From Bacteriovoracaceae bacterium (GTDB lineage Bacteria > Bdellovibrionota > Bacteriovoracia > Bacteriovoracales > Bacteriovoracaceae): a stretch of 64,000 nt of DNA. The DNA is taken from positions 124,001 through 188,000 of the forward strand of contig JAIPEG010000002.1 of the NCBI GenBank assembly GCA_021737405.1, given 5' to 3'. The notes beneath the pieces were generated by a model. It saw nothing but the letters and a program-made list of their open reading frames with translations. It did no database searches and was not told where the DNA came from. Position 1 is the first letter of the stretch. Each line of letters starts with the position of its first letter. This document shows positions 43,510 to 55,299 of the stretch, one piece after another. The translations under genes and the position numbers were made by a program.

Positions 43510-43830
43510 TTGGCCACTACAGCACGAAGGTCAAAAGGCATTAACCCTATTCAAACGATAAAAAACGTCATTTTTTCTAATCAAGTGTTTCCGTTCGTTT
43601 TAACTTTCTTTGTTCTAGCATTGTTATTTGTACTTTTTCGTATGAAGGGTGTGGAGCTTGATTATAAAATAACAAGTGTAAATAAAGACATTGAAAAAGT
43701 TTTGTTAGACAATAAAGAGTTAAAGGCGAGGAAGGCTAGACTTCTAAGCGTGAAAAGACTTCGGAAAATGGCTTCAAAATATGAACTTAAGCAACCCAAG
43801 CAAAAACAAATAATTGTTCTTCCGGAATAA
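43510..43830 (+). CDS. ftsL: FtsL-like bitopic division protein
   Basis: Single TM then coiled coil; between rsmH and the PBP gene. Confidence 0.65.
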   Translation: MATTARRSKGINPIQTIKNVIFSNQVFPFVLTFFVLALLFVLFRMKGVELDYKITSVNKDIEKVLLDNKELKARKARLLSVKRLRKMASKYELKQPKQKQIIVLPE

Positions 43831-45738
43831 ATGGAAAAAAACTTACGCCATAAAGTAATATTTCTTTTTTGCTTTTTTCTCATGGGATTTTTTTTAATTC
43901 TTGGGAAGGCTTTAAAGGTGCAAGTATTTGACCGAGCAGAGCTAATTTCACGGTCAAGAAACCAAGTTTTTAGAGAAATTACAGTTTATCCAAAAAGAGG
44001 AAATATTTACGACCGTAATGGTAATCCCCTCGCTCTCAATATCCAGACATACAGTATCTTTACCATTCCCAAAAATTTAAAACATCTCAAAAGCTCACTA
44101 AAAGAATTAGCTCAGGCGATTCCCAAGATAAAGCTAGATGATCTTCTAAAAAAGACCAAGGGGCGGGATAGGTATACTTGGTTGGCGAGAAAAATTCGCT
44201 TAACAAAAGATCAAGTAGAGAAAGTAAAAAACATAAAAGGAATCTATATTGATTCCGTTCCAAAACGTTTGTATCCAAACCATGAAGTCGGATCTCAAAT
44301 CTTAGGTTTTGTTGGGATAGATAATGTGGGCCTTGCAGGAACAGAATATCTCTTTAATGAGGAATTAAAGGGAAAACCTAAGGTCGTAAAGTATGTCAAA
44401 GATGCAAAGGGACGACCTATAAAGTTTGAGTCTCAAGACCTCGGTCCAAGTGCCAAGGATATTACCTTATCGATTGATAAGGATCTTCAGGCTGCAGCCG
44501 AGAGATATTTAAAGGAAGCAATTGAAGAACACGAGGCCGATAGTGGCGGTTTTGGTGTAATGGATAGTACCACTGGGGAGATACTTGCCATTGGCAACTA
44601 TCCAACCTTTGATCCTAATCAGTGGCGAAGTGCTAATGGAAAATCAAGGAAGCTCTCTTTTGCGACAGATCCTTTTGAGCCAGGATCAACCTTCAAAACT
44701 TTCACTGTTGTATCCGCATTTGAAAATAAGATTGCTACCGCAGAAACAAGTTTTTATTGTGAAAGAGGTAGATTAAAAGTCGAGGATCATATCATTTCTG
44801 AAGCAGAATCTAAAAAAACTTACGAATGGTTAACGGTAGAAGAAATTTTAAAGTATAGCTCCAACATTGGAACAACTAAGCTCGCCTTTGATTTAACCTT
44901 TCCTAAATTAAAAAAGACCATTTCAAAATTTGGCTTTGGAGAAAAAACAGGCCTTGAAGTACCTGGTGAATCAAGAGGAATATTTACAGAAAAGGCGAAC
45001 GTATCACCATTAAGCCTCTCTAACATAAGCTTTGGACAAGGAGTTGCCACGACAGGTGTTCAGATGCTTGCAGGCTACTCAGTCATTGCCAACAAAGGCC
45101 TATATATAAAACCGACATTAATTAAGGGTGGTAATGAAACGGAAAAACACAGACCTTTAATCACTCAAGAAGTTGCTAAGGAAGTAGAACGAATTCTTAT
45201 TCAAGCCGTTGAAGATGGGACAGGCAGCCAGGCTAAGGTTCCAATGTTTACTATCGCAGGTAAGACTTCAACTGCTCAAAGAGTTGCTCCAGAAGGCGGC
45301 TATCGAGGTTATGTTTCTGGATTTATTGGATACCCGGCAAATGTAAAAAAGCCTTTTGTTGTTTATGCCTATGTTGAAAATCCAAAGGGGCGCTATTATT
45401 ACGGAAATCTTGTGGCAGGCCCTGTCTTTAGAAAAATAACAGAGTACCTTCTATTTAAAAATAAAGACTTTAGTAACTTAGCCTATGAGAACGACGAGAA
45501 TATCAACAAGATTGATACAGTTAAAATCAAACACTCCTCTACAAGGGTATTTTCAAAAGACAAGGTGCCAAACTTTATAGGTTTAGATAAAAGGTCTAGC
45601 TCCTTACTTGGGGAAAAATTACAAATCAATGTTCTTCACAAGGGAATCGGTGTTGTTTATGAACAAATTCCGGCCCAGGGCACTGAGTTTAAAAGTGGAC
45701 AAAAAATCATTCTAAAGTACCATCCGCCCTCACTATGA
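43831..45738 (+). CDS. ftsI: Penicillin-binding protein 3-like transpeptidase with C-terminal PASTA domain
   Basis: EPGSTFKTFT (SxxK), YSSNIGT (SxN), AGKTSTAQ (KTG-like), PASTA VPNFIGLDKRSSSLLGEKL. Confidence 0.93.
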   Translation: MEKNLRHKVIFLFCFFLMGFFLILGKALKVQVFDRAELISRSRNQVFREITVYPKRGNIYDRNGNPLALNIQTYSIFTIPKNLKHLKSSLKELAQAIPKIKLDDLLKKTKGRDRYTWLARKIRLTKDQVEKVKNIKGIYIDSVPKRLYPNHEVGSQILGFVGIDNVGLAGTEYLFNEELKGKPKVVKYVKDAKGRPIKFESQDLGPSAKDITLSIDKDLQAAAERYLKEAIEEHEADSGGFGVMDSTTGEILAIGNYPTFDPNQWRSANGKSRKLSFATDPFEPGSTFKTFTVVSAFENKIATAETSFYCERGRLKVEDHIISEAESKKTYEWLTVEEILKYSSNIGTTKLAFDLTFPKLKKTISKFGFGEKTGLEVPGESRGIFTEKANVSPLSLSNISFGQGVATTGVQMLAGYSVIANKGLYIKPTLIKGGNETEKHRPLITQEVAKEVERILIQAVEDGTGSQAKVPMFTIAGKTSTAQRVAPEGGYRGYVSGFIGYPANVKKPFVVYAYVENPKGRYYYGNLVAGPVFRKITEYLLFKNKDFSNLAYENDENINKIDTVKIKHSSTRVFSKDKVPNFIGLDKRSSSLLGEKLQINVLHKGIGVVYEQIPAQGTEFKSGQKIILKYHPPSL

Positions 45739-47084
45739 TTAATTCATTATTAAAAAAATCAATCCTGATAAATGAACCGAACTTAACGGGAATAACAAAT
45801 GTTATTCAGGACTGTGATGTAAATGATGTCTTAGTCATGCACTGTAAAAGTGAAAACCAGTTAAATGATTTAATTGAAACTCATTTACCTGATGACTTCC
45901 AGGGTCTTTTAATTTGTCCCTTCTCCCCAAGAAAAAAAATTAATTACCTCGTAAAAAATATAGATGATTTAAAGACAGTCGAAGAGGGCTTGATTGATCA
46001 CTTCTACCCTATCCCAAACAATATCTTACCCAAGATAATTGGTGTAACAGGCACAAACGGTAAAACAAGTGTTTGTTGGTTGTTGGCAGAAGTTTGTCGT
46101 TTAAATAACAAAAGCTCCCTTTATGCTGGTACTCCAGGTGTTTATTTAAATGGCACCAAGATGGAAAATACTGTTTTAACAACCACCCCTTCTTACATGA
46201 GTTTACGAAAATTGGTTTTTCAATATGGAAGTAGTATTGATTTAATCTGTATCGAAGTGAGTTCTCACGCCCTCGTTCAAAAGCGCTTAGGTAAGCTAAA
46301 GTTGGAGGCAGGCGGGTGGACGAACTTTACTCAGGATCACCTAGATTATCATGGAAGCATGGAAGAATATTTTGAAGCAAAGAGAAAGATTTTTGACCTC
46401 GTAATCGGTAAGAAAATTTACATACCAAAGGGTGACGAGAATCTAAGGAAAAAGTTAAAAGACACAAGCGCAGTTATTGCAAAAACGATAGAGGAATATA
46501 AAAATCTTTTAGTCTCAGAGGTTTTCAAGAAAGGTTTTCCTAAGTTTAATCTAGAGCTTGCCTTGTCGCTTTACGAAGAAGTTTTCGGTGACTTTGAAAA
46601 TAAGGACCTAAAATGTTTAACACTTCCGCCAGGAAGATTTCAGATTGTTCTAAAGAATGACAAAGTATTTATAGTAGACTATGCCCACACTCCCGATGCC
46701 CTTGGGAGCGTTTTGGAACAAGTAAAGTTCACCTACCCTCGAAAGAAAATTTTGACGGTATTTGGTTGTGGTGGAAACAGAGATAAATCAAAGAGGCCAC
46801 TTATGCGGGAGGCAGCAAGTCGCCTAAGTGATTTGGTCATTATAACTTCAGACAATCCAAGGTTTGAAGACCCAAATGAAATTATTGAAGATATTATGGT
46901 CGGCTCACTCTCAGGGGAAACGTTGGTAGAAGTCGATCGGGAAAAAGCCATTCGCTTATCAAATACGTTAACTGATAGTGATTGGGTAATATTGGTGGCC
47001 GGCAAAGGTCATGAAGCGTATCAGGAAATCATGGGAGTTCGGCATGATTTTGATGATGTGAAAAAAATAAAGGGTTTAACTTAA
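45735..47084 (+). CDS. murE: UDP-MurNAc-tripeptide synthetase MurE
   Basis: GVTGTNGKTSVCWLL, FTQDHLDYHGSMEEYFEAK, ITSDNPRFEDP (DNPR). Confidence 0.92.
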   Translation: MINSLLKKSILINEPNLTGITNVIQDCDVNDVLVMHCKSENQLNDLIETHLPDDFQGLLICPFSPRKKINYLVKNIDDLKTVEEGLIDHFYPIPNNILPKIIGVTGTNGKTSVCWLLAEVCRLNNKSSLYAGTPGVYLNGTKMENTVLTTTPSYMSLRKLVFQYGSSIDLICIEVSSHALVQKRLGKLKLEAGGWTNFTQDHLDYHGSMEEYFEAKRKIFDLVIGKKIYIPKGDENLRKKLKDTSAVIAKTIEEYKNLLVSEVFKKGFPKFNLELALSLYEEVFGDFENKDLKCLTLPPGRFQIVLKNDKVFIVDYAHTPDALGSVLEQVKFTYPRKKILTVFGCGGNRDKSKRPLMREAASRLSDLVIITSDNPRFEDPNEIIEDIMVGSLSGETLVEVDREKAIRLSNTLTDSDWVILVAGKGHEAYQEIMGVRHDFDDVKKIKGLT

Positions 47085-48463
47085 TGATTAATACAAATGA
47101 TATTTTACTTTGTAAGAGTTATTTAAACGGAATCAATACGAATTCTGTAGAACTTACAATCTCAACTGACTCTAGAAAGTTTGATAAAGAGAATACATTC
47201 ATATCTCTTTATGGAGATAACTTTGATTCCATAAAGTTTATTCCTGACGTAATCAAAAGAGGTTGTGAGTATATCATTCTTGAGAGGCGGGAACAAAATC
47301 TTAAAGAAATTAGTAACCTTAAAAGTAATTTTGAAAACACCTCCTTCATAGAAGTTAATAATGTTTTTCAATTTATTTTAGAACTCGCAAATATTCGGTC
47401 AAATCGTTTTCAAGAAAATGGTGGTATTGTAATTGGTCTAACTGGTTCAAATGGTAAAACAACAAATAAAGAAATACTTAAGTATCTTTTATCATTCCTA
47501 GGAGAAGAACTTGTTTATGCCACCAAAGGTAATCTGAATAATCAAATTGGTGTTCCCCTAACGATATTTGAATTAAAAAATACTCATAAAGTAGCAATTG
47601 TTGAAATGGGTACAAACTTTCCAGGTGAAATAAAGGTCTTAAGCGAATGCGCTAACCCACTCTATGGATTTATAACGAATATTGGTCATGCCCACATTGA
47701 GTTTTTAAAAAGTTTAGATGGGGTTTTTATTGAAAAGACAGCGCTTTATGAAACCATTGCAAAAAGAGCAGGTGGATTATTTGTTATCAACGGATTCGAT
47801 CCCCTTCTTAAATCACTAAAGGGAAAATCAAACACCCTCTTTCTTGATCCTAATAATATTTCAATATTAGAAAATGGACTGAGTATTACTTTGTTAAATA
47901 AAACCTACAAAATAGAGAATTTAAATCTTCTTGGGGATCACCAAAAAATAAATATGGCGATGTGTTTGTTTATGGCCGCCTCCATTTTCCCCAATAATGT
48001 TGATCAATTGGTGGAAACGGCAAAAAATTATACTCCACCGGCGATGAATAGAGGCGAGATAATAATAGATGGCGACAAGCGAATTTATTTGGATGCCTAT
48101 AATGCAAACCCAAGTTCAATGAAGGCATCAATTACTAGTTACATCAGTTTTTTAAAACGAGAAAATGTAACAGTGTCGACAGCCTTTTTCATTTTGGGTG
48201 ACATGAACGAACTTGGCGAAAGCGCGCCAACTCTTCATGAAGAGACTGCCAAATTCCTATTGGAGCAAGGGGTCAAGAACGCATTGTTTGTGGGCCGTTA
48301 CGCCAAGCATTATCAAAAAGGCTTTGGTGAGAACGGCTTAACTTTTCCGACAGTGGAAAACTTAAAAGAATATTTCGCAGATAAGAAAGAAACTTTCAAA
48401 GAAGTCTTTATAAAGGGAAGCCGTTCTTTACAACTAGAGTCAATTTTAGATATAAGAGATTGA
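47084..48463 (+). CDS. murF: UDP-MurNAc-pentapeptide synthetase MurF
   Basis: GLTGSNGKTTNKE, EMGTNFPGEI, DAYNANPSSMKAS. Confidence 0.94.
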   Translation: MINTNDILLCKSYLNGINTNSVELTISTDSRKFDKENTFISLYGDNFDSIKFIPDVIKRGCEYIILERREQNLKEISNLKSNFENTSFIEVNNVFQFILELANIRSNRFQENGGIVIGLTGSNGKTTNKEILKYLLSFLGEELVYATKGNLNNQIGVPLTIFELKNTHKVAIVEMGTNFPGEIKVLSECANPLYGFITNIGHAHIEFLKSLDGVFIEKTALYETIAKRAGGLFVINGFDPLLKSLKGKSNTLFLDPNNISILENGLSITLLNKTYKIENLNLLGDHQKINMAMCLFMAASIFPNNVDQLVETAKNYTPPAMNRGEIIIDGDKRIYLDAYNANPSSMKASITSYISFLKRENVTVSTAFFILGDMNELGESAPTLHEETAKFLLEQGVKNALFVGRYAKHYQKGFGENGLTFPTVENLKEYFADKKETFKEVFIKGSRSLQLESILDIRD

Positions 48464-48485: not shown

Positions 48486-49562
48486 ATGCTCTATCATATT
48501 CTCTACCCTCTGAGTCAGAGTATTTCCGCCTTCAATCTATTTAGATATATCACTTTTAGAAGTGTTGTAGCTTTTTTGATCGCGGCCTTCGTTTCCATTA
48601 TTTGGGGCAAGCGTTTTATTGATTTCATGAAGCGAAAGCAGTTTGGCCAAGTCGTTCGTGATGACGGTCCCCAATCTCATTTAAAAAAAGCGGGAACACC
48701 AACGATGGGTGGAGTGGTTATACTGGGGAGTATGGCCTTAACTATGGCCCTTTGTGGAAACTTCACTTCAGCACCACTATTAGTCACTCTCTTTGTCATG
48801 TTCAGCTATTTCATTTTAGGGTTCTTAGATGATTACTTTAAGGTTCTAAAGAAAAATAGTGATGGTGTGTCTGCTAAAGCAAAGTTGTTGTGGCAGTTTG
48901 GCACAGCGGGACTTGCCACCTATGCTATGCTCCACTTTGACGTAATTGACACTAAACTATATCTACCCTTTCTAAAAGAGCCCCTTCTAGATATCGGTTG
49001 GTTTTATGTGATATTCGGCTCTTTTGTGATTGTTGGCTCTAGTAATGCTGTAAACCTCACTGATGGTTTAGATGGTCTTGCCATTGGCCCGATCATGACG
49101 AGTGCTGCGAGTTTAGGTTTATTAACTTACGTTTCAGGCCATACCGAAATGGCCAATTACCTTTTCATTCCTTATGTAGAAGGAAGTGGTGAATTGGCGG
49201 TTTTAGCTTTGGCGATAATTGGCGCGGGTGTTGGGTTCTTGTGGTACAACTCGTACCCTGCACAGATTTTTATGGGCGATGTTGGCTCCCTATCTCTCGG
49301 AGGAGTTTTGGGAACAATCGCTGTTTTAAGTAAAAATGAATTTCTCTTCGTAATTATTGGAGGGATTTTTGTAATTGAGGCAGTCTCTGTTATTTTGCAA
49401 GTCGGTAGCTATAAGCTCAGACAAAAGAGAGTGTTTAAGATGGCTCCTATTCATCATCACTTTGAGTTAAAGGGATGGCCTGAGCCTAAGGTAATTGTAA
49501 GGTTTTGGATCATTAGTATTTTCTTGGCGTTAATTTCAATAGCGACCTTGAAAATGAGGTAA
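48486..49562 (+). CDS. mraY: Phospho-MurNAc-pentapeptide transferase
   Basis: KKAGTPTMGGVVIL, FLDDYFKVLKKNSDG, AVNLTDGLDGLAIGP, KMAPIHHHFELKGWPE. Confidence 0.97.
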   Translation: MLYHILYPLSQSISAFNLFRYITFRSVVAFLIAAFVSIIWGKRFIDFMKRKQFGQVVRDDGPQSHLKKAGTPTMGGVVILGSMALTMALCGNFTSAPLLVTLFVMFSYFILGFLDDYFKVLKKNSDGVSAKAKLLWQFGTAGLATYAMLHFDVIDTKLYLPFLKEPLLDIGWFYVIFGSFVIVGSSNAVNLTDGLDGLAIGPIMTSAASLGLLTYVSGHTEMANYLFIPYVEGSGELAVLALAIIGAGVGFLWYNSYPAQIFMGDVGSLSLGGVLGTIAVLSKNEFLFVIIGGIFVIEAVSVILQVGSYKLRQKRVFKMAPIHHHFELKGWPEPKVIVRFWIISIFLALISIATLKMR

Positions 49563-49564
49563 AA

Positions 49565-50947
49565 ATGGAAAGATTTAGAAATAAGAAAATTCTCATTGTT
49601 GGTATTGGTAAGACTGGTTTTACACTTATTAGCTTTTTTAATCAGCTAGACTGTGAAATTCGTGTAACTGACATTAAGCCGATATTTGACTTAAATAAAG
49701 CTGTTAAAAAACTAAAAAAAGTTGAGCCACCAATTCATATGACTTTTGGTGAGCACAGAGAAGAAGACTTTTTAGATGCTGACGTTGTTGTTTATTCTTC
49801 ATCAGTTAATCCTGAGCTTCCCCAGTTAGAGCTTGCTCGCCAAAATGGAAAAGAAGTTTATTCTGAATTTGGTCTTGCCAATAAATTATGCCGCAAACCG
49901 ATTATTGCCGTTTGTGGCTCATACGGAAGGACTACTGTTGCCCACATGATTGGTTTCTCCTTAAAGCTTGAAGGGAAAAATGTATTCGTAGGTGGAACAA
50001 GCGAAACTCCCTTTATTGAATACGCGATGATGCCTAATCATGATGAAATAGATTACGTTATTGTTGAGGTCTCTGCAGTTCAGCAGCGTCGTTTGGAGAA
50101 TTTTCATCCAAAACTTGTCGTATTTACAAATATCTCTGAGAGATACCCAGAGTCGCACTTTAATTCTGTGGGTGAATATATTGAGACTAAGCTTTCTATC
50201 ATAAAGTCACTCTCGCCTGATGACACACTCGTTGTGAATTTTGATAAACTTGCGAGCAATACATTCTTTAGAAATGCAAACTGTCAGACTTATTGGTACT
50301 CAAGAAAATCTTTCGTGAAAATGGGTGTAATGAATGAAATTCAAGGAACTCACTTCCATGAAAGAAGAATTCATTCAAATATAAATTACCACTCAGAATT
50401 TAAAGTTAAGGAAATGCGAATTATAGGCCAAAACAATAGAGAAAATTTATTGGCCGCCGTAACTGCATGCAAGGCCTTAGAAGTATCAGATAAGTCGATT
50501 CAAAAATGTGTTGAGAAATTTCCAGGTATTCCTCATCGTTTAGAATTTCTTATGGAGAAAAATGGCGTTTGTTTTTATAACGACTCTAAGGCCACAAGTA
50601 TGGAGGAGATGGTTTCAAGTATTAAGTCTTTCAAGCAGCCCGTCATATTAATAGCTGGTGGTAAAGATATTGAAGAGATGGAATATGAAGCCTTTGCTCA
50701 GGAAACTATTGATAATGCTAGGGTTCTCGTTCTCGTTGGAGAAACTAAAGAGAGAATGAATCGGGCTCTTCAGGATCATCCTCAAACATATATTGTAGGA
50801 AGTTTTGAAGAATCGATCCTTTTTGCTTACCAAAAGTCCCGTACGGGCGATGTTATCCTCTTAAGTCCGGGTGCGCCGGCCACAGATTTCTTCAGAGACT
50901 ATGAAGAGAGAGGGAATTACTACAAGAAACTAGTTTATCAACTTTAA
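49565..50947 (+). CDS. murD: MurD homologue with altered ATP-binding motifs
   Basis: C-terminal FYNDSKATSMEEM, IAGGKDIEEMEYE, LLSPGAPATDFFRDYEERG fit MurD; P-loop is GSYGRTT instead of G(T)NGKT/S. Confidence 0.85.
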   Translation: MERFRNKKILIVGIGKTGFTLISFFNQLDCEIRVTDIKPIFDLNKAVKKLKKVEPPIHMTFGEHREEDFLDADVVVYSSSVNPELPQLELARQNGKEVYSEFGLANKLCRKPIIAVCGSYGRTTVAHMIGFSLKLEGKNVFVGGTSETPFIEYAMMPNHDEIDYVIVEVSAVQQRRLENFHPKLVVFTNISERYPESHFNSVGEYIETKLSIIKSLSPDDTLVVNFDKLASNTFFRNANCQTYWYSRKSFVKMGVMNEIQGTHFHERRIHSNINYHSEFKVKEMRIIGQNNRENLLAAVTACKALEVSDKSIQKCVEKFPGIPHRLEFLMEKNGVCFYNDSKATSMEEMVSSIKSFKQPVILIAGGKDIEEMEYEAFAQETIDNARVLVLVGETKERMNRALQDHPQTYIVGSFEESILFAYQKSRTGDVILLSPGAPATDFFRDYEERGNYYKKLVYQL

Positions 50948-50995: not shown

Positions 50996-52216
50996 ATGGA
51001 TGACACATTGGAAGTGATCGATAAAAGCCAGAAGTATTTCTTGGGAGTTTTAAGCTCCCTTGTTGTGCTTGGCGTTGTAATGGTCTACTCCTCCAGTTAT
51101 ATCTACGCTCGTGATATTTACGGCAACAGTTCGCACTACTTTTATCGTCAGCTTTTCTTTATCGGTATTGGTGCGCCAATGTGCTGGATTATATCTAAAA
51201 CAAAAATCTCCTTTTGGTTAAAATACAGTTGGTTCTTTCACTTGATAGTGACTCTACTTTTAATAGCTACTTTTATCCCTGGTCTCGGAAATCAAGTCAA
51301 AGGCGCTAACCGCTGGCTCTATGTGGGTGGGTTCGGTTTACAGCCAGGCGAGTTTGTTAAGATAACCTCCCTCTTGGTTGCTGTCCCCTTCTTTGAAGGG
51401 TTCTTTAAAGTTTCCCCACGAGAAAGAATGGCCCAGGGCCTCTTTATTGTTTTACCCATGATTGTATTATTAATTCAGCCAGACTTTGGTTCCTTTTCAA
51501 TTTCACTGGGCCTTGTCGCTGTTGTTTGTTTCTTAAGCTCTTTTCCTCGAAAGTACTTCTACTCCGCTTTTGCCGTAGGTGTGTTGGGTATAATTCCCAT
51601 ATTAATTTCTCAACCCTATCGAGTGAGACGACTTTTTGCCTATTTAGACCCATGGAAAAACCCTCAAACATCAGGTTTTCAAATTATTCAGTCCTACCTT
51701 GCCTTCGCTAACGGCTCTATTTTTGGAACGGGTTTAGGAAATAGTAATGAAAAACTCTTCTACCTTCCTGAGGCCCACAATGACTTTATATTTTCAGTCA
51801 TCGGTGAGGAGCTTGGTTTTATGGGGGTTTTTGCTGTCGTTTCTTTATTCTTAGGGCTGATCTTTTTTGGTTTTAGATTAGTCACAAGGCTAGAGAAAAA
51901 ATCGTCAACCATTTTAGCCACGGCCATAATTTTTACGATTGGCTTTCAGGCGACTTTAAATATGGGTGTCGTTTTAGGCTTATTGCCAACAAAAGGTCTA
52001 AATTTGCCCTTTATAAGCGCTGGAGGCTCATCTTTGATTGCAAACTTTTTCGCAATAGGATTATTTCTAAGCGCTGTGACTGAGCGCAAAAAGACATTAA
52101 TTACACATAATTCTTTTGAGCAATTTTCAACTTCTTCGAGCTCTTATATAAATGACCATCAGACTTTTACCAATTCTCCTTCTGGCAAAGCGCCAGATCA
52201 GGGAGAGCTTTTTTAA
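50996..52216 (+). CDS. ftsW: Cell division lipid II polymerase FtsW
   Basis: MVYSSSYIYA, GANRWLYVGGFGLQPGEFVKI, QPDFGS, LPEAHNDFIFSVIGEELGF, LNLPFISAGGSSL. Confidence 0.95.
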   Translation: MDDTLEVIDKSQKYFLGVLSSLVVLGVVMVYSSSYIYARDIYGNSSHYFYRQLFFIGIGAPMCWIISKTKISFWLKYSWFFHLIVTLLLIATFIPGLGNQVKGANRWLYVGGFGLQPGEFVKITSLLVAVPFFEGFFKVSPRERMAQGLFIVLPMIVLLIQPDFGSFSISLGLVAVVCFLSSFPRKYFYSAFAVGVLGIIPILISQPYRVRRLFAYLDPWKNPQTSGFQIIQSYLAFANGSIFGTGLGNSNEKLFYLPEAHNDFIFSVIGEELGFMGVFAVVSLFLGLIFFGFRLVTRLEKKSSTILATAIIFTIGFQATLNMGVVLGLLPTKGLNLPFISAGGSSLIANFFAIGLFLSAVTERKKTLITHNSFEQFSTSSSSYINDHQTFTNSPSGKAPDQGELF

Positions 52217-52231
52217 AGAAGGAAGAATCCT

Positions 52232-53614
52232 TTGAGACAAGAAAAATCAGATGTAATCGTCCATATTATTGGAATAGGCGGCATTGGAATGTCGGCAATA
52301 GCTGAAGTCCTTATACGCCTTGGTTTTAAAGTACAGGGTTCGGATCAAAGTGCATCTGCAAATGTAGAAAAGCTAAAGAGTCTTGGTGCTAATATATTTA
52401 TAGGGCACAAAAAAGAAAATATTCAAGGAGCGACCGTTGTTACTCATTCGAGTGCAGTAAAAGAAGGAAATCCAGAATACGACGAGGCCATTACCCAGGG
52501 TTTGCCGCTATTAAGAAGAGCGCAAATGTTAGCGGACATTATGAAGCTCAAAAAGGGAATTGCGGTTGCTGGGACTCACGGAAAAACAACGACAACGAGT
52601 TTAATTTCAACACTCTTAAAAGAAATCGGCGCAGACCCAACTTATATCATTGGTGGGATTGTTCATAATTTAGGAGGACACGCTCACGTTGGCAAAGGTG
52701 AGTACATCGTTGCTGAAGCCGATGAGTCAGATGGAAGCTTCTTAATGTTGAACCCTGTAGCATCAGTTATTACCAATATTGATAATGACCATCTCGATTA
52801 TTATGGAAGTGAAGAAGGGTTAGAGATAGCCTTTCACCGCTTTGCTAATCAGATTCCTTTCTTTGGGATTTGTTCCATAAACCTTGAAGATGAAAAGCTT
52901 AGAAAAATACTAAAGGAAATGGATAAGCCTCATGTTACCTATTCTGCGAGTAAAGAATATGAAAGTGCGGATTACCATGCCAAAGAGATCAAACAATCTC
53001 CTGAGGGAGTGGGATTTACTCTTGTGGTTAGAGGAAAAGATTTAGGAACCTTTAAGCTTAAGGTACCAGGAAGACACAATGTACTGAACGCCCTTGGGGC
53101 ACTCTCAATTTGTATGGAACTTGGGTTTAAAGAAGGTGACCTTAAAGTAGCTCTAGAGAAATATTTAGGTGTAGGAAGAAGATTTCAAAAAGTTTTTGAG
53201 GAAAATAAGTTTGAGGTTATTGATGATTATGGCCATCACCCAACTGAAATTTTTGAGACTATAAAAACAGCGAGAGAATCGCGAAAAGATAAAGAAATCG
53301 TTGTTATATTTGAACCCCATCGCTTTTCAAGAACAAAAGCATGTTGGGCCCAGTTCCTTCACTGTTTCAATACTGCAGACAAGGTTTTTATTGCGCCCAT
53401 CTATCCTGCTAATGAGGAGCCAATAGATGGAATAAACTCCATCAGTCTAAGCTCAGACATTAATCAGCTTCATCCAAATCTAACGGAAAGTTTTGAAAAC
53501 TGGGATACCATAAGAGAATTTGTAAAAGAGGCGAAAACAAAGGATATGCTCTTGTTGGCCTTAGGGGCTGGTTCTGTTGGCAAAAAGGTAAAAGAAATTG
53601 TCTCTTCTCTCTAA
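52232..53614 (+). CDS. murC: UDP-MurNAc-alanine ligase
   Basis: HIIGIGGIGMSAIAEVL, AVAGTHGKTTTTSLIS, EADESDGSFL, DDYGHHPTEI. Confidence 0.97.
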   Translation: MRQEKSDVIVHIIGIGGIGMSAIAEVLIRLGFKVQGSDQSASANVEKLKSLGANIFIGHKKENIQGATVVTHSSAVKEGNPEYDEAITQGLPLLRRAQMLADIMKLKKGIAVAGTHGKTTTTSLISTLLKEIGADPTYIIGGIVHNLGGHAHVGKGEYIVAEADESDGSFLMLNPVASVITNIDNDHLDYYGSEEGLEIAFHRFANQIPFFGICSINLEDEKLRKILKEMDKPHVTYSASKEYESADYHAKEIKQSPEGVGFTLVVRGKDLGTFKLKVPGRHNVLNALGALSICMELGFKEGDLKVALEKYLGVGRRFQKVFEENKFEVIDDYGHHPTEIFETIKTARESRKDKEIVVIFEPHRFSRTKACWAQFLHCFNTADKVFIAPIYPANEEPIDGINSISLSSDINQLHPNLTESFENWDTIREFVKEAKTKDMLLLALGAGSVGKKVKEIVSSL

Positions 53615-54524
53615 GAATAAAATATCTCAATTAGATAACGTGGATATTGAAGTATTCAAAGACGTGGATCTTTCAAAATATTCAACAATGAAATTGAGCA
53701 GTCATGGAGACCTCGTAAAAGTTCGAAGCTTAATCGCACTTCAAGACCTGTTAAAAGTATTTTTGGACGAACAAATCCCTTATCGGGTTATTGGCTGGGG
53801 TGCGAACTTTATCCTTCCAAAAGAACCAGACTTTGTTTTGATAAAGCTAGACCTTCCTTTTGATAAAAATTCAATAAATGACCAAGAGAATGAGTTTAGC
53901 CTGTCTGCTACGGCTCCTCTCAATGTTTTGAGTTCAATCGCTTCAAAGTATGGACTAAGTGGCTGGGAAGTCTTTACTGGCGTTCCTGCAAGTCTCGGGG
54001 GTGCTATTGCCATGAATGCCGGTACATCTCTAGGCGAAATTGGTGAACTCATTAAAGACGTAACTGTTTTGAGTTCAACTGGAATGATAAAAAAGATAGA
54101 TATCGACAAAAATTCATTTAGCTACCGTAAAAATAATTTTTTAAATGAAGGCGATATCATTGTGGAAGCCACTATTTTTCATAAGGGAATTGATCCAACC
54201 GTTGCCGAAACAATAAAAACATACCTGCAAAAAAGAACAGAATCTCAGCCTTTGCGAGAAAAAACGTGTGGTTGCATGTTTAAGAATACGATCACGCAGA
54301 TAAATGGAAACAGTGTCACTTGCAGGGCGGGGCAATATATAGATATAATGGGCTTAAAGGGATTAAGCTGGGGGCAAATGAGAATAAGCCCTAAACATGC
54401 TAACTTTATGGAAAATAAAGGGAGCAGCAATAGTGACGAAGTTAAAAAACTTGTCGCAATTGCACTAGAAGAGCTTGAATTTCATTACGGAGTTAAATTT
54501 GAGACAGAAGTTCATCTTCCCTAG
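53598..54524 (+). CDS. murB: UDP-N-acetylenolpyruvoylglucosamine reductase
   Basis: YRVIGWGANFILP, FTGVPASLGGAIAMNAGTSLGEIG, KTCGCMFKN, HANFMENKG. Confidence 0.92.
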   Translation: MSLLSKNKISQLDNVDIEVFKDVDLSKYSTMKLSSHGDLVKVRSLIALQDLLKVFLDEQIPYRVIGWGANFILPKEPDFVLIKLDLPFDKNSINDQENEFSLSATAPLNVLSSIASKYGLSGWEVFTGVPASLGGAIAMNAGTSLGEIGELIKDVTVLSSTGMIKKIDIDKNSFSYRKNNFLNEGDIIVEATIFHKGIDPTVAETIKTYLQKRTESQPLREKTCGCMFKNTITQINGNSVTCRAGQYIDIMGLKGLSWGQMRISPKHANFMENKGSSNSDEVKKLVAIALEELEFHYGVKFETEVHLP

Positions 54525-55299
54525 TTCTAAAAAGTTTTCGAGATATTTTTTAGTATTAGGTATATTTATGTTTTTCTTCTTATCGGGCCAAGACACCAGT
54601 CTGTCGTCATCTGGACCCATTCAGAAGGAAAATATTAAATACAGAACAAACTTTGGCTCTTGTCCTTCTCGTTCTGCAGGTCAAATGACTTTGAAGATGA
54701 TTAGGATATTTGAAGAAACAGGTAGCTTAAGAAGTGTAAAAGAAAAAATTATCAAAAACTCTCTAGATGAAAGGCACTTTGTCAGTGACTATAAAATATC
54801 TTTCGATCCTTTAAAGAAAATGCTTTTCTTTAACCTTGATTGCCCAAAACCTTTGATGAAAGTCCAAATTTACAAAGACAATGGTATTGATTCGTATGAG
54901 GCCATTTTGGTTGATAGTGGTGAGCTCTTTGACCCAACCTATGAAGTGCTACTTAGAACTGAAAAAAAATTGGAAAACCAGCTCCCCTATTTAGCGATTC
55001 CTGTCGGCGAACTTGAAGCGAAAACTCAGAAGGAAATAACGCGAGTTGTTGACAGCCTCGGAGATACATTTAGACGTAAGATTTCAGAAGTAATTTTAGA
55101 CGATAAGGGCGACTTAACGGTCATTTTGAGTTTAAGGGGTAACCCAAGTAGCGTTTTTATGGGCCCCAATGATTGGTATGCGAAGGCCGATCAGCTGAAA
55201 AAAATAGTTAAGTATATGGAATCAAACAAGAAAATACCCGCAATTATAAACCTTACAAATTCTAAAAAAGTGGTTGTCAAGTTTAATAGCAATCTTTAA
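54475..55299 (+). CDS. FtsQ-like division protein (divergent)
   Basis: Single N-terminal TM; C-terminal LTVILSLRGNPSSVFMGPNDWYAKADQLKKIVKYM...IPAIINLTNSKKVVVKF is FtsQ-like; lies between murB and ftsA. Confidence 0.6.
   Translation: MNFITELNLRQKFIFPSSKKFSRYFLVLGIFMFFFLSGQDTSLSSSGPIQKENIKYRTNFGSCPSRSAGQMTLKMIRIFEETGSLRSVKEKIIKNSLDERHFVSDYKISFDPLKKMLFFNLDCPKPLMKVQIYKDNGIDSYEAILVDSGELFDPTYEVLLRTEKKLENQLPYLAIPVGELEAKTQKEITRVVDSLGDTFRRKISEVILDDKGDLTVILSLRGNPSSVFMGPNDWYAKADQLKKIVKYMESNKKIPAIINLTNSKKVVVKFNSNL

Follow-up and report, generated by a model that had tools for sequence, protein, structure and literature searches.

The window, a 64,000-nucleotide stretch of a Bacteriovoracaceae genome, carries a dcw cluster in the order rsmH, ftsL-like, ftsI, murE, murF, mraY, murD-like, ftsW, murC, murB, ftsQ-like, ftsA and ftsZ. 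The class to which it belongs, Bacteriovoracia, is made up mostly of predatory bacteria. The murD-like gene encodes a MurD homologue with an arginine in place of the P-loop lysine (hereafter the Arg-form MurD, a putative pseudo-MurD), and is surrounded by the following genes:

45735-47084, plus strand: murE, P-loop normal (GTNGKTS)
47084-48463, plus strand: murF, P-loop normal (GSNGKTT)
48486-49562, plus strand: mraY, immediately upstream of the Arg-form MurD, order conserved in relatives
49565-50947, plus strand: Arg-form MurD, open reading frame of 460 amino acids from the ORF list
50996-52216, plus strand: ftsW, immediately downstream of the Arg-form MurD, order conserved
52232-53614, plus strand: murC, P-loop normal (GTHGKTT)

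The Arg-form MurD starts 2 bases past the mraY stop codon, and the dcw gene order, including its place between mraY and ftsW, is kept at each examined locus where the genes were found. There is no murG between ftsW and murC (50996-53614); a murG-like gene lies on a separate contig of the same genome (C37:48536-49543) and scores 241 bits, slightly below the model cut-off. The genes at the ftsQ position (54475-55299) and the ftsL position (43510-43830) have no Pfam match.

By sequence and by predicted fold the protein belongs with MurD. It scores 287.8 bits with the NCBIfam murD equivalog model TIGR01087, above the cut-off of 211.95, and its AlphaFold2 model (pLDDT 84, pTM 0.82) is predicted to adopt the three-domain Mur ligase fold. 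The closest solved relatives in the PDB are MurD enzymes, and MurD structures fill ranks 1-33 of a Foldseek comparison (TM 0.54-0.67). With a canonical dcw MurD such as that of E. coli it shares fold, length, three domains, the mraY/ftsW position and the C-terminal motifs. Model confidence is lowest at the P-loop (residues 120-122, pLDDT <50, which may reflect the alignment only), and therefore we make no claim on the position of the arginine side chain. A second P-loop elsewhere in the protein, which the first-pass annotation had named as grounds for withdrawing its reading, is not present.

The P-loop lysine of Mur ligases contacts ATP phosphates. Residue tallies were made over 99 distinct Bacteriovoracia orthologues (the R clade, comprising the Arg P-loop dcw MurDs of this class), 20 dcw MurDs representing other families in the phylum and 46 sequences of MurD2, the second, canonical MurD of the class. 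MurD positions such as K115, N138 and H183 follow E. coli MurD numbering. The relevant features of the window protein are:

49796-49807, plus strand: SSSV in place of the S-P-G-[IV] loop (E. coli residues 71-74), in which G73 contacts the UDP substrate
49916-49936, plus strand: P-loop GSYGRTT, residues 118-124 (N113 to Y, K115 to R), codons ggc tca tac gga agg act act
49997-49999, plus strand: Thr145 in place of Asn138 of the substrate site (R clade: T 97/99, S 2/99)
50072-50083, plus strand: SAVQ in place of SSFQ, the start of SAVQQRRL, residues 170-177 (second Ser in the R clade: A 60, P 35, S 3, V 1)
50138-50161, plus strand: ERYPESHF, residues 192-199, in place of EDHxDR, with His183 replaced by Tyr194 (His lost in 99/99)
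50189-50191, plus strand: Lys209, equivalent of the carbamylated Lys198, kept in the window (R clade: kept 64/99, lost 35/99)
50282-50422, plus strand: WYSRKSF...GTHFHERRIHSN...SEFKV..MRI, a block strongly conserved in the R clade and a candidate partner surface
50579-50596, plus strand: NDSKAT, retained C-terminal motif with D317 and K319 (R clade: D 98/99, K 98/99)

The first-pass annotation had read the altered P-loop from these same codons, reported SAVQQRRL and ERYPESHF where MurD motifs are expected and listed normal P-loops in MurC, MurE and MurF; all of this stands, as does the retention of the C-terminal motifs, with GGKD and SPGAPATDFF present alongside NDSKAT. As a side observation, the ordinary MurD of A. 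baumannii (PDB 7sir) has the P-loop GSNAKST, so the second glycine of the motif is not absolute.

The orthologue alignment that the first-pass annotation had proposed extends these losses to the whole class. Position 115 is arginine in all 99 R-clade sequences; it is lysine in 20/20 other dcw MurDs and 46/46 MurD2. Substrate contacts in MurD include L15, T16, D35, T36, R37, G73, N138 and H183 (PMC12844806). P72 and G73 survive in just 3 and 5 of the 99 sequences, with S/A among the replacements (P72 20/20 and G73 19/20 in the other dcw MurDs; 45/46 each in MurD2), and D35, kept in 99/99, is the sole UDP-muramoyl site residue retained among G73, N138 and D35. N113 is replaced in nearly all R-clade sequences by variable residues, H183 has become Y/N/F and others within a stretch (ERYPESHF in the window) that is among the least conserved of the clade, and H267 is likewise replaced. 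The carbamylated K198, often lost here, supports Mg2+ in MurD (PMC4816537), and K348, T321, S415 and F422 line the pocket that binds D-Glu mimics of inhibitors (PMC3527612). At these last positions T321 is Glu in 90/99 sequences (the window keeps T), S415 is S/A/G, F422 is Y or F, and the K348 column is gapped in the alignment. All five of G73, N113, K115, N138 and H183 are lost in 93 R-clade sequences and four of them in the other 6; none is lost in 15/20 other dcw MurDs and in 45/46 MurD2. By contrast with the lost set, each of E157, N268, N271, R302, D317 and K319 survives in 96-98 of the 99.

Such motif losses resemble decay, and we considered whether the gene is a decaying pseudogene or a product of sequencing or assembly error. 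The 99 distinct sequences are open, full-length and Arg-bearing, and come from independent assemblies. The codons at position 115 are AGA (47), CGT (21), CGA (13), CGC (10), AGG (2) and CGG (1), with no Lys codon; since six different codons encode it, the arginine is kept by selection and is not a sequencing error, in line with the doubt that the first-pass annotation had cast on an artefact. Within the genus, dN/dS is about 0.02-0.04 where dS is measurable, dS being near saturation, and identity between orthologues is at the level of FtsZ. The orthologues, the codon tally and dN/dS together refute both decay and error, whose probability we regard as negligible. Active-site residues lost from a protein under purifying selection would, as judged from these alignments, mark a pseudoenzyme.

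We then compared how strongly the protein is conserved, and where. Over nine genomes its mean identity is 74.4%, alongside MraY (72.6), FtsA (75.0) and FtsZ (75.5); values are lower for MurC (57.1), MurE (38.6), MurF (38.0) and MurD2 (40.6). In their own right, MurE and MurF of Bacteriovoracia (L250-L264) evolve unusually fast (mean identity 38%), next to the strongly conserved MraY, FtsA and FtsZ. High conservation was rejected as proof of a new role, the same excess being found in the control families f6 (82.7%) and f8 (71.3%), whose dcw MurDs have the P-loop lysine. Because these lysine-bearing proteins are equally over-conserved, the constraint on dcw MurD predates the loss of the lysine and was not relaxed by it.

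What shifted is the location of the constraint and not its level. Pairwise identity of the catalytic columns in the R clade is 0.75, against 0.75 elsewhere in the protein, whereas depth-matched f8 dcw MurDs show 0.98 against 0.71, and MurD2 0.97 against 0.37; constraint on the catalytic columns of the Arg-form MurD has thus fallen to background. The His183 loop shows 0.55 identity in the R clade and 0.77 in f8. The conserved blocks, residues 35-45 and 240-286, consist for the most part of non-catalytic columns; over residues 240-272 identity is 0.83 in the R clade, 0.57 in the f8 control and 0.92 in f6, and some of the over-conserved blocks are partly common to the f6 and f8 families.

These data bear on the possibility that a remodelled active site still supports ATP-dependent ligation by the protein, yielding either the MurD product or a product with another amino acid or precursor. 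The adenine/ribose and C-terminal positions N268, N271, R302, D317 and K319 are kept, the murD model is passed and the P-loop arginine is invariant, with no drift. Nevertheless, N113, H183, K198, H267 and T321 vary among members to a degree hardly tolerable in a working site, the catalytic columns carry no extra constraint, and an intact MurD2 is encoded in the same genomes. We consider an active ligase of this kind improbable.

MurD2 is 24-31% identical (approximately) to the Arg-form MurD in relatives of the window genome. It carries GTNGKTT and SSFQLE, keeps H183, K198 and all other catalytic residues, and also passes TIGR01087. The two are homologues in the same genomes, but MurD2 differs from the Arg-form protein in its intact active site, its location outside the dcw cluster, its fast evolution and its position in a separate clade (support 100/99; deep placement uncertain, 81/49). 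The Arg-form orthologue was recovered in 73/73 good-quality genomes (129 Bacteriovoracia genomes searched), and a scan of named genomes gave matches in Bacteriovoracaceae, Bacteriovorax, Halobacteriovorax and uncultured relatives. At first search, 68 of the 73 high-quality class genomes yielded a MurD2 whose catalytic set is complete. Among the other five, G074 does have MurD2, G011 shows a piece of it where a contig stops, and in G033, G063 and G076 a contig ends at the expected MurD2 locus beside the M24 peptidase gene. Most apparent absences in relatives were similarly traced to missed matches or contig ends, G014, G117, G052, G108 and G112 excepted. A Methyltransf_32 gene encoding 410-430 amino acids lies divergently beside murD2 in many Bacteriovoracia (L112:6703-7989 and equivalents).

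The first-pass annotation had called for a search for a second murD, and the outcome was mixed: MurD2 is present across the class and in 5/6 genomes of the window's genus, but searches by family and with same-genus MurD2 recovered no murD2 from the window's own assembly, which is 84% complete. The only Mur-type proteins of this assembly are MurC-F, FolC and an Mpl-like protein; as candidates for a second MurD, the Mpl-like gene (L005) and the FolC-like one (L006) were rejected, neither being a MurD. In the same genus murD2 is flanked by genes for glutamine synthetase III, a methyltransferase, an M24 aminopeptidase and an aminotransferase, and by tgt. A search of the window assembly's contigs recovered no glutamine synthetase III, only a weak distant match to the M24 peptidase and no tgt, which was found in 14/14 control genomes. 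Given that these conserved neighbours and tgt are missing too, the absence of murD2 is consistent with an assembly gap, the simplest though not a proven reading.

Between the two explanations offered by the first-pass annotation, a remodelled active site or a pseudoenzyme with MurD activity supplied elsewhere, the class-wide intact MurD2 and the background level of the catalytic columns favour the second. In a maximum-likelihood tree the Arg proteins form one clade (100/100) that sits inside the phylum's ordinary dcw MurDs; its stem measures 0.96 changes per column, and the branches beyond it are short. The Arg form arose once, from an ordinary dcw MurD, along a long stem. The shape of the clade is that of a burst of change followed by a freeze, and a single origin, a burst and renewed constraint fit a shift of function.

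We judge it probable that throughout the class the Arg-form MurD is a pseudo-MurD retained in a non-catalytic role, with D-Glu ligation carried out by MurD2. The parts of this proposal differ in strength. From the residue losses, the ligase activity of the Arg-form MurD has very likely gone: the P-loop lysine, the Mg/substrate residue His183 and the UDP-muramoyl loop are absent, and so it should be unable to ligate. The protein keeps its predicted three-domain fold and its mraY/ftsW place but would no longer synthesise UDP-MurNAc-L-Ala-D-Glu. In all likelihood MurD2 is the working MurD, and, encoded elsewhere, it would make the UDP-MurNAc-dipeptide. On balance we lean towards a scaffold or regulator as the present role of the Arg-form protein, which would most likely take part, structurally or as a regulator, in the cytoplasmic complex passing precursors from the Mur ligases to MraY/FtsW. 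The constant gene place and the conserved blocks, mostly outside the catalytic columns, argue for docking or regulation beside MraY/FtsW. A membrane-side precursor complex has been proposed around MraY, MurG and MreB as hubs (PMC4929429). More generally, the apparent loss of MurD chemistry, the tight conservation of the Arg-form MurD and the intact MurD encoded elsewhere together suggest that a protein shaped like a Mur ligase has a non-enzymatic function not recognised before.

The retained E157, N268, N271, R302, D317 and K319 make nucleotide binding or some reaction by the Arg-form protein possible. The nearest rival to a scaffold or regulator, ahead of an active remodelled ligase, is that it senses a ligand, binding nucleotide or UDP-muramoyl peptide without turnover and signalling precursor supply to MraY/FtsW or MurD2. 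In other P-loop proteins, replacement of the Walker-A lysine by arginine often spares binding, and here the adenine/ribose-side residues and D35 are near-invariant. The UDP-sugar site (P72/G73/N138/H183), however, is lost, and the P-loop is the least confidently modelled part of the protein, though the alignment alone may cause that; we regard a sensor as unlikely.

Re-use of the Mur-ligase fold has parallels among the matches. PAP11, a MurE-like subunit of the plastid RNA polymerase complex, is a Mur-ligase homologue like the Arg-form MurD and acts as a component of another complex; it differs in being MurE-derived, in residing in a eukaryotic plastid and in lying outside any dcw cluster. MurT of the MurT/GatD amidotransferase, a weak match, also has a Mur-ligase fold with an altered job, but is an active enzyme with its own partner, and no GatD-like gene is among the identified genes of the window cluster. 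The Arg-form MurD is set apart from canonical MurD by the lysine-to-arginine change in the P-loop, the loss of G73, N113, N138, H183 and H267 and the lack of special conservation in its catalytic columns. Pseudoenzymes and re-used Mur ligases such as PAP11 are already known; an inactive dcw MurD of Bacteriovoracia, class-wide, was not found described in the open-licence papers searched. It is an open question whether Mur ligases are purely enzymes or also structural parts of a precursor-channelling complex, and a class in which both functions appear to be split into two genes allows a direct test, in that removing or tagging the presumably dead copy should spare the enzyme supply. Since automatic models name both genes murD, anyone assaying or targeting MurD in these predators by way of the obvious dcw gene would probably be working on the wrong protein.

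Erosion of dcw MurD extends beyond Bacteriovoracia. The f6 dcw MurDs (L266-L274) keep the P-loop lysine and have Ala or Ser at Asn138 in 9/9, and a second MurD with GSVGKST or GSVAKST is present in 3/3 f6 genomes tested (L229, L230, L233). The dcw MurD of f15 (G167; L203/L240) is half-eroded, with GSLGKTT, NAQQM (SSF to NAQ), G73A, N113L and N138S, and the same genome has an intact second MurD (L227). The dcw MurD of f22 (G208; L214) carries N138A and K198Q, again with an intact second MurD (L228). Among the sampled genomes, dcw Asn138 loss and a second MurD have four origins each and coincide exactly, both traits occurring in Bacteriovoracia, f6, f15 and f22, with absence of a second MurD in other families resting on a search that missed two true copies. 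An independent-pairs sign test of Asn138 loss against second MurD gave three pairs, all concordant, too few for significance. A tentative reading, to which we give somewhat less than even weight, is that non-catalytic work in the wall-synthesis complex is an ancient second function of the Bdellovibrionota dcw MurD, and that each gain of a second MurD freed the dcw copy from catalysis to drift towards a scaffold, a process complete in Bacteriovoracia and begun in f15, f22 and f6.
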